A stretch of 64,000 nucleotides of DNA, from assembly GCA_020055645.1 (NCBI GenBank), contig JAECZT010000010.1, forward strand, positions 186,001 through 250,000. Direction: 5' to 3'. Shown piece by piece: positions 55,432 to 63,411 of this stretch. Numbering within the stretch: the stretch's first letter is position 1; every line of letters starts with the position of its first letter. The translations under genes were made by a program, and so were the position numbers. Under the pieces are notes generated by a model. That model was not told the origin of the DNA. It saw only the letters and a program-made list of their open reading frames with translations, and made no database searches. Origin of the DNA: Tomocerus qinae. Taxonomy: Eukaryota > Arthropoda > Collembola > Entomobryomorpha > Tomoceridae.

Positions 55432-57115
55432 CCTACAGCAAGCCGTAACAGAAGCAAGCCTGAGTAAAAGGGACCGTGTGCACATTTTGGTTGTAATAAT
55501 AATAGAAATAAATTTATTTTGATTATTAAAGTAAGCAGTAATTCAAACTAGAATATTTAATTCATAATTCAATATAAAAACCAACAGAAAATCAAAATAG
55601 ATTGATGTTTACTATCAAAATCAACAGAAAATCAAAATTGATTAATGTAGACTATGAAAATCAACAGAAAATCAAAATTGATTAATGTTGATTATGAAAA
55701 TCAACAGAAAATCAAAATTGATTAATGTTGATTATGAAAATCAACAGAAAATCAACAGAAAATCAAAATGGATTAATGTTGATTATGAAAATCAACAGAA
55801 AATCAAAATTGATTAATGTTCACTATGAAAGTCAGCAGAAAATCTAAATTGATTAATGTTGACTATCAAAATTAACAGAAATTCAAAATTGATTAATGTT
55901 GACTATCAAAATTAACAGAAATTCAAAATTGATTAATGTTGACTATCAAAATTAACAGAAATTCAAAATTAATTAATGTTGACTATCAAAATTAACAGAA
56001 ATTCAAAATTGATTAATGCTGACTATCGAAATTAACAGAAATTCAAAATTGATTAATGTTGACTATCAAAATTAACAGAAATTCAAAATTGATTAATGTT
56101 GACTATCAAAATTAACAGAAATTCAAAATTGATTAATGTTGACTATCAAAATTAACAGAAATTCAAAATCAATTAATGTTGACTATCAAAATTAACAGAA
56201 ATTCAAAATTGATTGATATCGATTATCATGATCAACAGAAAATCAAAATTGATTAATGTTGACTTTGAAAATTAACAGATATTCAAAATTGATTAATGTT
56301 GATTATTAAATCAACAGAAAATCAAAATTGAATAATATTGACTATTAAAATCAACAGAAAATCGAAATAGACTAACATTGACTGTTTAAATCCACAAAAA
56401 ATCAAAATAGATTAATATTCAGTATTTAAATCAACAGAATATCAAAATAGATTACTATTGAGTATATAAATCAACAGAAAATCAAAATAGATTAATATTG
56501 ATTATTAAAATCAACAGAACATCAAAACAGAATAATGTTGACTATTTAAATCTACAGAAAATCAAAATAGATTGACATTGACTATTTAAATCTACAGAAA
56601 ATCAAAAAATAATATTGACTATTTAAATCAGCAGTAAATCAAAATAGAACAATATTGACTATTTAAATCTACAGAAAGTCAAAATAGAATAATATTCACT
56701 ATTTAAATCTACAGAAAGTCAAAATAGAATAATATTCACTATTTAAATTTGCAGAAAATCAAAATAGAATAATATTCACTATTTAAATTTGCAGAAAATC
56801 AAAAAGGATTAATATTGACTATTTAAATCAACGGAAAACCAAAGTAGAGCAATATTGACTATTTAAATCTGCAAAAAGTCAAAATAGATTAATATAGATT
56901 ATTAAAATCAACAGAACATCAAAACAGATTAATATTGATTATTTAAATCAACAGAAAATCAAAACAGATTAATATTGACCATTAAAATCAACATAAAATC
57001 AAAACAGATTAATATTGACTATTTAAATCAACAAAAAGTCGAAATAGATTAATATTGACTATTTAAATCAACAGAAAATCCAAATAGATTAATATTCAGA
57101 ATCGAAATAAGCAAA
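55432..57115 (-). mobile_element. Family H copy 11, 3' end plus long minisatellite
   Basis: CCTACAGCAAGCCGTAACAG at 55432 marks the 3' end of a minus copy. The minisatellite then extends to about 57110 in two sub-types: an AATTAACAGAAATTCAAAAT block (55870-56220, very uniform) and an older AATCTACAG type. The head and conserved block are missing. Confidence 0.65.
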
Positions 57116-57237
57116 AAATCGTGTGCCAAAAATGACAACGGCGGCGGCTGGCCATCACGGCGGGGTTCTCTGTTTTTAGACATCTTGAAATACTAATGTC
57201 ATGAATCAAACTTGTAGCTATTTTAATATTATCCGGA

Positions 57238-57732: not shown

Positions 57733-58116
57733 TTGTAATTATAATTGAGAGATTCCTGTGAATAACAACTTATCATAATTTCGGAATTGGGAATCAAATT
57801 CAGAAGCCGGGGGAAAGAAGGGCGTGGCGCAAAATTCTGAATTTGTAAACAACTTTTCAAAAAGTATCGAACGTATAAAAGACCCGAAACCCGAATGTTC
57901 TGATACCTGACAAGAGAGAGATTTTGAGTGTCTGGCCGAAATAAGTTGTAACAAACAGCAGTAATGATGGCATTCATAAAAGTATAAAATAATGAAATAA
58001 CAACTGTATTGTATAATACAATGTGATGCACATCTTGGTTTTCGTTTTAACAATGCTACAATACTTTATTACAAAAACCAAAAGTTATCTGAACGTAAAC
58101 AAACTCTAGTAGCAAT

Positions 58117-60094
58117 CTATATGTAAATTTTACATCTTTTAGCGCACAACCAATAGTGTGGAAGATTTCTATAGAAATCACGGTATTGTGGATCCAGAAA
58201 TTCTAACATTTTCATCAAATCTGCATATTTTTTAGAATCAATCAGCAGATCAGCTTCATTTCTGACTCTAAACGCAACATTGTCTAACCAATCATCTGTC
58301 CACGAGGCTCGCTGACTGTGTTGTAAACCAGCCAGAAACGGTTGAGGAATTTCGTGACGAGTAAAATAATGAGAATTATGACGCTCTTTACTCAAAATGC
58401 CAGACGTGTCACCCAAAGTTATTCTAAACCATAGAGATTGGGAAACTTTTAAAGTGTGAGGTTTAGGAACCATTTCTAATAAGTCATCGAAGGCCAAGAA
58501 GTCTTCCCTTTTCATTACTTGGTACTGAAAAGAATTGCTAGGTCTTGAATTTTGAAACACAGTAAGCCACTCTTCGGGTGAAAATACTTTCCCATTCTTC
58601 TTTTGTTTCTCAATGAGTCCGAATAACCGATCGCAAACTAGGAAAGAATGGCCGCTACTCAAAAATTTTTGATCTACAGCTGTAGATCAAAAATCCGAGC
58701 TGTCAAATCAAAGATTTTTTACTACTGTATACAGTAGTAAAAAATCTGTGCTTGATCAAAAGTTTGGCAAATACGAGTGTTAAGTAATTATTATTTTGAC
58801 CCGAGCAGCGGTCACTCCACAAAATCAGACTTCTATCTTGATTTTCCGCCAAAGGGAGAAAATTGGTATTTATATAACGCCACAGACACGAAACCATCTC
58901 TTCGGATCCTCTAGTGGCCATTGATTCAGTCCAACAACTCATAGTAGTAGCATCAGTACCAGTGTTGTAAATGCAATAATTATATGAGGAATATTGCCTT
59001 AGATAAAACATATCTTTGTGTACCAGCGTAGGGGAAAACAGAACTTGCTCCAAGTCTACACATAGGACGATAACCGAGCGATCCAATTTGGCTATTTCTA
59101 TGTCATTTCTCATGTGTGTATACCCGTCATTTGCAATCTGATGGTGTAGTTCGGTTTGTTGACGAATTCTGTTACGCTCTTCCGTACTACGGGCATTTTT
59201 TCGGATATATAAAGTTTTTCGCATTCGCTTCATGTGTCTGAACGTAGCTTAGAAAATCGTAGTCCTGTTGTTTTTGGTTCCTTGCAGTATGCGTCTTTTA
59301 GGAACGGTACTCGAATATCTTCTGGGTTTGCGTCCACTAACATCCTCAAAAATTTTTGACATATTTAGTCCCAGTGGAAGATATTCTCGTTGCGGATCTC
59401 CCACGTTTCGAATGTAGTGCGATAACGTTGTTGGAAAGCTGGATATGTGGACTCGGATCAAATCCAAGACATAGGCGTTTAAACGATGAGGTCGAGTATT
59501 GTGTCTTCCACGTTGATCCCTACCAAAAATTTCTCTTTGGAGCAGTTTTTGCTGGATAACACGAATGCGTTTCTGTTTAACCTGTAGAATATGCATTAAA
59601 CTCGCTTGACAAATTTCATTACGTTCTCCATTGGAAGGGAGGGGATATGTGAAGGTGTTCACACGTCTGTGGTTTTCATCATTCCTATCATCTTCATCTT
59701 GGGTGACACAGGCAAGCAAGAATGTATTTTGCATTTCGTAATTTCCGTTTGAGTAGAATCTCCTAAATATCTCTTGCTTTGAGTCAACACTCAGTAGACA
59801 ACCTTTGTTTTGACAACTTGCAGGACATACTTTGCTTGCCAAGCATTAATAGTTTTAGCATTAATATTTTTTTGATATAAAAAAGTGACAATTTATGTAG
59901 AATAAGTTTGAAATTTTTACGTTGGGAGGAACTTTACCCGGTACAAGATATCCTGCGGAAGAGAGATACGGATGTGCACTATTTCTGTTTTTCTTCCTCA
60001 CTTCGTTTATCCTAGATTGTAGATTTATTGCTCGTTTTCTTCGACCGTTTATTTCACTCAGTTGCCGTTCTGTAAGTACCACCTTGTGCTCCAT
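58117..60094 (-). pseudogene. Putative transposase of transposon A (DUF7869-like)
   Basis: Exon 1 runs from ATG 60094 to 59921 (58 codons; LTERQLSEINGRRKRAINLQ) and ends at GTAAAA. The next part (59842-59249) has VCPASCQNKGCLLS, RIRVIQQKLLQREIFG and HNTRPHRLNAYVLDLIRVHI. A frameshift near 59340 and a TGA at 59230-59232, where copy B has Cys (SDTC-x-x-C), break it. Next comes IVLCVDLEQVLFSP, TRGSEEMVSCLW and LILWSDRCSGQNNNYL. After the palindromic segment at 58666-58746 comes SSGHSFLVCDRLFGLIEKQK and LMKMLEFLDPQYRDFYRNLP. D in VDLEQ, D in WSDRC and D in CDR could be RNase H-like catalytic residues; that is inference. Confidence 0.65.
58666..58746. other. Two perfect palindromes at an intron position of transposon A
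   Basis: TTTTTGATCTACAG/CTGTAGATCAAAAA (28 bp, 58666-58693) and GATTTTTTACTACTGTA/TACAGTAGTAAAAAATC (34 bp, 58713-58746) lie 19 bp apart. They interrupt the coding sequence between FFTTV and the GHSFL exon, where copy B has a GT-AG intron. Half of each palindrome is coding sequence and the other half is its inverted copy. A 52-base GTAGTA...CTGTAG intron here would restore the frame. Confidence 0.6.
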
Positions 60095-60280
60095 TTCAAT
60101 ACAGGTTTCTCGATATTATTTCTTGCTTTTTTAAATTTCAAATTATGTTTATCGAAATAAGATTTAAAATGCTATTGGAATATTTCCGCCAAGTAGAATT
60201 TCGGGTCCCGTGTTCGTGACCCAAAAGGTCACTTCATAAGTTGTCAAGGAAATTAAAAACCCCACGCCCTTCTTTCCCCC

Positions 60281-60749
60281 AGATAGATTGTAGTCATAGA
60301 AAATAAACAAGGTTTCTCCAAAGGGAAAATTAAAAAAAAATTTGTCATTCCCCAGTGGAAAAATGATGGTTTCAGTTTCAAGTAATATTAAATGGTGAAA
60401 TAGTGAAATATTATCAGCGTCTCGACGGGCCTGTAATTTCTTTGAAATGACATACGCGGATTCGAATCGGTCAGCTAACACTCAAAAAGGCAAGCTGGAT
60501 TTTTGTAGCCTGATAAAATGGACCACTTATATGGCAGGCAGTTTGGTGACAAGCCGGTAAAAATGGCTAACTGGTTGTTTTAAATCTTGGTTAGCCAGTG
60601 GGTGAAATAGTTAAATATTTGAGCTAAAATAATCACTCTTCATTGAACAACAGTTCAAAACTGTAATAGTATTTTACGATTTGTAACATTTTAGTCGGCT
60701 GAGTCTTTAGTCAAGAAGTGGATAAGTAAGCATTTAAGATTTAACACGA
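60281..60749. other. Spacer between transposon A and the LINE relic
   Basis: A minus-strand frame (60481-60164, 105 codons) runs from unique sequence into the end of transposon A. Its outer 65 residues (FHHLILLETETIIFPLGND and so on) look protein-like but are not recognised. TGGCTAACTGG and GGTTAGCCAGTGG at 60563-60602 form an inverted pair. Confidence 0.25.
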
Positions 60750-60958: not shown

Positions 60959-60962
60959 ATAT

Positions 60963-63407
60963 GACTGGGTGGCTGGAAAAAGAACGTATATCCGTTGCCA
61001 AAATAAATCTTTGGGTAACTAGGTGTGATAATTGAAATTGGTAAACAATTTTTAACCCTTTACTCAACAACTCAACTCAACAAGATCAATATACCACTTG
61101 GTGGATAACGAATTTAAATCATAAAGTACTACATTAATTTTGCAAGAATTCCCAAAATCGTCTTGCAGTCGCAGGAAGGTACTTCTGCATGGAGAGTAGG
61201 TCTTGTGTAAGTGCTACATCTAAATGCAAGGGAGCATGGTATTTCTGTTGAGGGATTATTGTGTTTAAATCAATGACAGTTGGTGAAAGATGTTGTTCCC
61301 ATTGCTCATTATTGTGGTCCTGTTTGGTAAATATGGAGTTCGGATGTTGTGACTCCACTTTTATCACCATCGCGTGAGTGACTTTAAGCGTCGCAGGTCG
61401 TCTAGCAGCTTGAACGATGATATCAAAATCCAAAATTGTTTCTTGAGTCATTCTTTGTACTTCGAATGGATTAGTAATACAGGCTTCTTTGAGCATGTTA
61501 ATGCAATCATCGACATGTAAAATAGGTACTCTTTTCATTTTTCGTTCAACTAAGGCAAACTGCCGATCACACGGCAGAAATGAATGCCCTGTGCACAAGA
61601 ACTTTTGATGTATCTAACAAATAGATAAATTCCAATTAGATTATCATTGGCATCATTGGTTATAATTTTGCAAAAATTTAGAGTAAAAAATACCTCTGTA
61701 AAATATTTTAAAGCTACAAGGTAGCGGTACCCGCAAATCGTTTCAAAATTATTATTTTGGGCACAACATCTATCAGACCATACAACTAAAGTCCGTTCTT
61801 GGCCGTCAGGTAAGACTTCGAAATTGCGTGTGCAAAACTGGTACATACTCGAAAAAATTTCGCTGGCTCCTCGATTTCCTTCTCTTTTGTGCCAGAAGCA
61901 CATAACTGTTTTATCTGTATCAGCGCGATGAATTGCAACATTGTAACATGGGTATTTCAGCTTGTAATACTGTACGCTGTTGGTTAACTTTCATGGCTGT
62001 TTTGAAACATGCTTACAAATTGTAAGTAAACTTACCGCTTGCATGTCGATTGACAATACAGTGTAGTTCGGATTCGTTTTACTTAACATGTAATCATCTC
62101 TGAGATTTTGAAACCCGTTCTCTGCTTTCAGATGATGCTCAACCATCGTTAGCCACAAATCACTTAGTTGATTCTCATTTTCAATATTTGTTTCGTCTAG
62201 ATTTGAAATGGCTACAAAAAGCTCATCGCATTGATTACAAGTGTCGCTCCTTGGGGGACGAAATCTTAGATTCAGCTCCCTGAACGTATCATAATAGACT
62301 TTTTGATGTGAGAATACATCCTCCCCAATTGCTTCACAATACATTTTAAACATCTTAGAAACGTTTAAATCAGTTCCCAAATATTGGCGTAATGGGTTTC
62401 CAGCCTAGAAGCGGACAATTTTTTTGTAATTTAATCTTTTCCCAAAATTTACTATAGTTAAAAAATATCTTACAGCGCGAGAATAGTGGCTTAATTCTGT
62501 TGGAAAAGATCTTATGTGGGATACAATATTTGCCTTTACGTCGGGACTGTGCTTATGAGGCCGATTTAAATGTTGTCCTCTTAACTCTTAAATCTATTGC
62601 TGCAAGGTTCCCAGAACACAATTTCTGCTGAATTGTTCGTAAACGTAACTCACTTAATCCGAAAACTGCTAGAAATGACTTTTTGCAAACACATACTTTG
62701 TTACTATTTTCATCTGTTATCCAGTAAATGTATGTGCAGCTTCGTCGATGGACTTCTCCGTTCACTTTTCGTTGCTTTACAAGTTTCTTTTCAATTAAGT
62801 TCAACAGCGATGTCGATTGGACATTCCAATTTGCTAAATTCCAAAACTCTTGGAATAATTCCACTTTTCTTTGTTGGGAAACTAAGCAGCCCTCATTCAG
62901 ACACCCTGGTTCGCAATAGTAATCCTTTGAGTTGAAATAAAATTTTCTTATATGAAAGATTAAGGTGACGTGTTTTTGATTTAATATTAATTTCATGTCA
63001 TAGAATGATAAGTTTTACATACCTCATTTATTGGCACAGCTCCTTGATTTTCTTTGCCATTCCGCCCTACGTGTGAGTTTCCTGAATTTTTCTTAATTTT
63101 TGCACAATTGTCTGCCCAATCGGCTACATTTATTTTTCGTCGTCTTCCCACATTTAAGCCAGCTAATTGTCGTTGTGGAATGTTAAAGTGTGTATCCATT
63201 TTATAGCAATGAAAGATGATTGATTTAAATAAGAAGGAAACGAACACTGTAACCAAAAGTTTTAAGCCATCAAGCAAAAACTACATCATTATTTTGAATT
63301 GGCGGGTTGAGAGGGTTAAAAATTGTTTTCCAATTTCAATTATCACACCTAGTTAACTAAATATTTTTTTGGCAACGGATATACGTTCTTTTTCCAGCCA
63401 CCCAGTC
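60963..63407 (-). mobile_element. Transposon B: ~105-bp inverted ends, inserted in a LINE
   Basis: The left end 60963-61067 (GACTGGGTGGCTGGAAAAAG, AACGTATATCCGTTGCCAAA) and right end 63303-63407 are reverse complements with few mismatches over about 105 bp. ATAT flanks both sides (60959-60962 and 63408-63411), consistent with a 4-bp duplication, though TA or AT with a longer terminus is equally possible. The flanks are the two halves of one LINE C-terminal region, so this is a genuine insertion. It carries one minus-strand gene with four short introns. Confidence 0.85.
61134..63199 (-). CDS. Putative transposase of transposon B, five exons (DUF7869-like)
   Basis: The proposed exons are 63199-63023, 62924-62474, 62404-62035, 61969-61694 and 61613-61134, each with GT/AG borders (donors GTATGT, GTAAG, GTAAGT, GTATTT). 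The protein would have about 580 residues. It starts MDTHFNIPQRQLAGLNVGRR. Exon 2 has CEPGCLNEGCLVSQQRK and RLRTIQQKLCSG. Exon 3 has LNVSKMFKMYCE and PPRSDTCNQCDEL, and ends LSIDMQA. Exon 4 has GNRGASEIFSSMYQF and TLVVWSDRCCAQNNNF. Exon 5 has CTGHSFLPCDRQFALVERKM. One base near 62580 breaks the frame in exon 2 between AIDLRV and NRPHKHSPDV, so the copy is probably inactive. The exon 3/4 junction is the least certain. The family resembles uncharacterised animal proteins, not a transposase I can name. Confidence 0.65.
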
Positions 63408-63411
63408 ATAT

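Follow-up and report, generated by a model that had tools for sequence, protein, structure and literature searches.

A DUF7869 gene as the probable transposase gene of a cut-and-paste DNA transposon in Tomocerus qinae

Introduction

Sola transposons were reportedly established as a superfamily in 2009 on DDD (three aspartate) transposases of the kind discussed here, and the target of piggyBac transposons is TTAA. Passages of one published account (PMC10741241) describe Sola transposons as having a DDD transposase, a 4-bp target duplication, a length of 2–9 kb in most elements and terminal inverted repeats (TIRs) of 11–1124 bp; the plant members of Tc1/mariner appear there with a 2-bp TA duplication. 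Amoebozoan Sola2 elements, in the part of PMC3627910 that deals with them, show AT-rich 4-bp duplications of the form AWWT (ATAT, AAAT, ATTT), called consistent with the Sola2 family. An element of comparable anatomy is present in a 64,000-nucleotide stretch of the Tomocerus qinae genome (termed the window; C10:186001–250000 of the 334-Mb genome G000). It carries a gene of the DUF7869 family (Pfam PF25273), a domain to which Pfam assigns no function and which is linked here with a transposon and a predicted DDD core. With high confidence we read the element as an autonomous cut-and-paste DNA transposon, present in a damaged copy, whose single gene codes for a DUF7869-family DDD transposase.

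The window element and its gene

The features of the element are as follows (window positions).
60959..60962, no strand: target duplication, left copy, ATAT; also a single ATAT at two empty sites in a long interspersed nuclear element (LINE)
60963..63407, 2445 bp: DUF7869 element, gene on the minus strand
60963..61068, plus strand: left TIR, from the alignment of the element ends
63306..63407, minus strand: right TIR, from the alignment of the element ends
63408..63411, no strand: target duplication, right copy, ATAT; also a single ATAT at the two empty LINE sites
63023..63199, minus strand: exon 1, containing the probable start codon, by comparison with the L016 protein
62474..62924, minus strand: exon 2, with a frame change near 62586–62600, by comparison with the L016 protein
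62036..62404, minus strand: exon 3, with SDTCNQCDE and IDMQ, first Asp codon at 62045–62047, by comparison with the L016 protein
61694..61990, minus strand: exon 4, with WSDRC, second Asp codon at 61772–61774, upstream border uncertain, by comparison with the L016 protein
61134..61613, minus strand: exon 5, with GHSFLPCDR, third Asp codon at 61566–61568, ending in a stop codon, borders by comparison with L016

The initial annotation had placed an element with inverted ends of ~105 bp and ATAT flanks at 60963–63407. These are seen in the letters, and the ends align with 92.7% identity over 110 alignment columns, ATAT included.

The five exons were inferred by comparison with a related copy, L016 (C2:50671200–50676200). 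The L016 gene has five exons separated by GT-AG introns of 101, 71, 79 and 81 bp and gives an uninterrupted protein of 590 aa (593 aa with an alternative choice of the last intron). The window copy matches this protein at 56%–69% per segment (tblastn). Its exon borders are all GT/AG, apart from the start of exon 4, which could not be placed; an in-frame TGA at 61991–61993 lies directly upstream of exon 4, within the stretch aligned to the exon 4 start. The window copy is therefore a damaged gene, with a frame break and an in-frame stop, although a later splice acceptor may skip the TGA. The motifs of the proposed WSDRC/GHSFLxCDR protein (IDMQ, WSDRC and GHSFLPCDR) are confirmed, but the copy that encodes them is broken. 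All other frames of at least 50 aa in the element are short, and the DUF7869 gene is the only gene between the inverted ends, as had been proposed.

Gene structure varies within the genome. In some families the matched part lies in one open frame, of 556 or 567 aa without stops (e.g. C1:98153958–98155400), and in others it is spread over five exons, as in L016.

Target duplication

Paired inverted ends were found in ten families, and of the 28 paired sites 27 carry the same 4 bp on either side; 4-mers drawn at random from the window are equal in 0.6% of draws. The target duplication, which the initial annotation had left to be determined, thus has a fixed length of 4 bp. The 27 duplications are ATAT (15), AATT (9), ATTT (1), AACT (1) and ACAT (1), and the window family together with its sister family has ATAT in 12 of 12 rows. 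Because ATAT is palindromic, it cannot by itself separate a 4-bp from a 2-bp duplication; ATTT, AACT and ACAT are non-palindromic and set the length at four bases.

These sequences bear on the reading of the elements as mariner-like, duplicating TA within A-TA-T, or as piggyBac-like, with TTAA, a reading to which we give almost no credence. Taken by themselves, the ATAT sites would allow a TA duplication, and the fold matches of the protein include Mos1 and Metnase (see below). Nevertheless, the ATTT, AACT and ACAT duplications require four bases, as opposed to the TA of mariner, and rule out a mariner-like element, while the piggyBac reading is ruled out by the presence of TTAA at none of the 27 sites. 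In addition, no Pfam transposase family was matched at E ≤ 0.1 by seven homologues or by the L016 protein.

The 28 sites leave out one-ended loci, L013 and L015 (whose second end is beyond the stretch) and L059/L060 (where no end was found). Elements present in two loci each (L030/L031, L036/L037, L041/L042 and L046/L047) are counted once. Among the one-ended loci, ATAT is missing from the end of L034, and L007/L011, which are a single place, read TTAT.

Two further loci have unusual flanks. At L048 (G000:C2, about 3165969–3166068) two sister-family copies adjoin at their ends, separated by one ATAT, which is expected if one copy entered the duplication of the other. Both flanks of the short copy L009 share a longer stretch (AATATAAACGC) near ATAT, unlike the other copies.

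Insertion into a LINE

The two window flanks were joined through one ATAT and matched against the same genome. This gave 22 LINE matches, two of which are the window's own halves. Two of the other 20 were read, and both run through the junction, where they have only one ATAT (273/288 and 283/306 identical). A frame adjoining one of these empty sites matches reverse transcriptase (RVT_1, E = 6.2e-7). The flanks therefore belong to one LINE, in agreement with the initial annotation. The single ATAT at both empty sites indicates that the ATAT duplication is real and that the element entered the LINE, duplicating ATAT.

On the minus strand of L057, beside an empty LINE site, there are frames with motifs that we take to be those of a long terminal repeat (LTR) retrotransposon polymerase.

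Related copies and families

The search of the source genome with the end sequence, as had been suggested, yielded two further paired copies whose tips are the same (2130 and 1813 bp), five gene-bearing copies of a sister family (66% match to the window element over 2.1 kb) and many copies of ~1.5 kb. DUF7869 coding was not found in seven short copies (L009, L010, L012, L031, L037, L042 and L047; best E = 0.49). Such gene-less copies share the ends of the window family or of its sister and resemble ordinary short non-autonomous elements.

The conceptual protein has at least 121 exon-level matches genome-wide (75 of 486 candidates scored), and the Pfam DUF7869 profile at least 131 (150 of 183 candidates scored). 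Nine pairs of DUF7869 genes of equal or near-equal score were picked for inspection of their borders. Inverted ends bound eight of the nine (L049/L050, L051/L052, L053/L054, L055/L056, L061/L062, L063/L064, L065/L066 and L067/L068). The copies in these eight pairs are 98.7%–99.96% identical and their printed flanks differ; identity at this level among copies of eight families points to recent spread. Gene-bearing copies of the other families are 1537–2655 bp long, the 1537-bp ones (F2) having a partial gene.

The ninth pair, L059/L060, holds a DUF7869 gene at two places, its open frame being 748 aa long. It may represent a larger element, a segmental duplication or a gene whose transposon has been lost. 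Ends without the gene and a gene without visible ends, which touch on two conditions that the initial annotation had set against itself, are both present in the genome, the former in the seven copies that look non-autonomous and the latter at L059/L060.

Movement of the gene-less copies would also be compatible with the DUF7869 gene being a passenger in elements moved by another enzyme. We consider this very unlikely, since the 2.4-kb element holds no second gene, since the DUF7869 gene is found in ten families whose ends differ and since its product has the predicted fold of a transposase core.

The DUF7869 protein

The L016 protein scores 40.8 bits against the DUF7869 profile (family cut-off 26), while single exons of the window copy, at 16.9 and 11.7 bits, are below the cut-off. 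The family name proposed in the initial annotation is thus right by way of the L016 relative. The three Asp are kept in at least 90% of 24 homologues. An AlphaFold2 model displays a predicted RNase H-like core with the three conserved Asp at DDE/D positions, as had been surmised from the Asp of IDMQ, WSDRC and LPCDR. Fold matches of the model are retroviral integrases, MuA, IstA, TnsB and the Mos1/Metnase transposases, which share with it the predicted catalytic core fold and the placement of acidic residues. The VIA-align comparison covers mainly model residues 181–472, so that the N-terminal part is barely tested. Of the two comparisons that the initial annotation had proposed, the structural one thus gave an RNase H-like predicted fold and the one with transposase profiles gave no match to a Pfam transposase family at E ≤ 0.1 for the seven homologues and the L016 protein.

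Pattern searches elsewhere gave 43 matches among prokaryote genomes and 44 among viral contigs, of which not one was confirmed to be a relative, and 14 control genomes gave no DUF7869 match.

The paired ends, the 4-bp duplications, the recent spread and the predicted RNase H-like core together indicate that DUF7869 is very probably a DDD cut-and-paste transposase. The suggestion that this family rides, and probably moves, a cut-and-paste transposon is supported by the full copies, the fixed duplication and the predicted fold. In the proposed mechanism, the DUF7869 transposase would bind the inverted ends and cut by an RNase H-like metal site formed by the Asp of IDMQ, WSDRC and LPCDR. The ends would then be joined to the target, cut with a 4-bp stagger at A..T sites (for the most part ATAT or AATT), and repair after joining would produce the 4-bp duplication. 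Short gene-less copies would be moved in trans by enzyme made elsewhere. In this scheme the ends, the 4-bp duplication, the empty site and the recent spread of several families are read from the sequence itself, the fold and the placement of the Asp are predicted, and binding, cutting and joining by the protein are inferred.

Relationship to Sola

The element probably belongs to the Sola superfamily, Sola2 group, to which it is likened by anatomy and target. The three Asp at DDE/D positions of the predicted core, a 4-bp duplication at all but one of the paired sites, and a length of 2445 bp with TIRs of ~105 bp (within the described ranges) are all as in Sola, and AWWT at 25 of the 27 duplications is as in Sola2. 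The amoebozoan Sola2 elements, as presented in part of PMC3627910, differ in having TIRs of 12–21 bp and, in some, a Fanzor1 protein; the window element has longer TIRs and one gene.

Several points weigh against the reading of the element as a DDD transposon of DUF7869 type or against its place in Sola2. The Sola2 likeness is drawn from descriptions: passages of PMC3627910, PMC10294476, PMC10741241, PMC4455052, PMC7728395 and PMC12477816 describe Sola and give no sequence. The AACT and ACAT duplications deviate from AWWT. L064 is the sole paired site without a matching duplication, and in families D, E and F2, whose inverted repeats are imperfect, the tips were placed manually with sight of the duplication (omitting their six rows leaves 21 of 22 sites matching, with ATTT kept). 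No inverted ends were found at the borders of L059/L060, which are 99.9% identical across almost all of the 4.6 kb compared. Foldseek gave no match at E ≤ 0.001 (best 1.2e-3), and the profile, unlike the fold, gave no match to the integrases and transposases named above or to any other solved structure at E ≤ 1.

Some of these points would also fit a separate, undescribed DDD superfamily that shares an AT-rich 4-bp target duplication with Sola. DUF7869 would then stand as a distinct transposase superfamily, characterised by a DDD core and a 4-bp A..T target. It would be abundant in animals, given at least 131 profile matches in a single genome, and would have been left without a name because its proteins are filed as uncharacterised. 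The descriptive nature of the Sola likeness and the two duplications outside AWWT are in its favor, as is the absence of any protein named transposase or Sola among the matches listed (24; 120 of 249; 120 of 195). However, the DDD triad, the 4-bp duplication, the AWWT preference, the size and the ends all match the descriptions of Sola and Sola2. A separate superfamily is accordingly unlikely, though less so than a passenger gene, and placement in Sola2 is preferred.

If the element is a Sola2 transposon, its kind has probably been known since 2009, and DUF7869 elements may be in Repbase under Sola names. The new part seems to be the identity of DUF7869 as a transposase. The term DUF7869 is absent from the literature searched, and within that literature its role as a transposase seems not to have been published under this name. 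The result assigns a probable function to a Pfam domain that had none, and many "uncharacterized" DUF7869 proteins of animals would be transposon genes and not host genes. The link between DUF7869 and a transposon, which comes with target duplications and an empty site, is of use and can be tested. Recent movement is suggested by the near-identical copies and by the uninterrupted frame, so that activity is open to direct test, and the short, nearly fixed 4-bp target may be of interest to builders of gene-transfer tools.

Other features of the window

A further DUF7869 element precedes the one described above.
57799..60284, minus strand: second, older DUF7869 element, family D, 91% identical to L053 over 2507 columns

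AATT is present before its left tip. The right tip is degraded, and consequently there is no matching duplication on that side.

A tandem array with a 40-bp unit is found at window positions 56800–57159.
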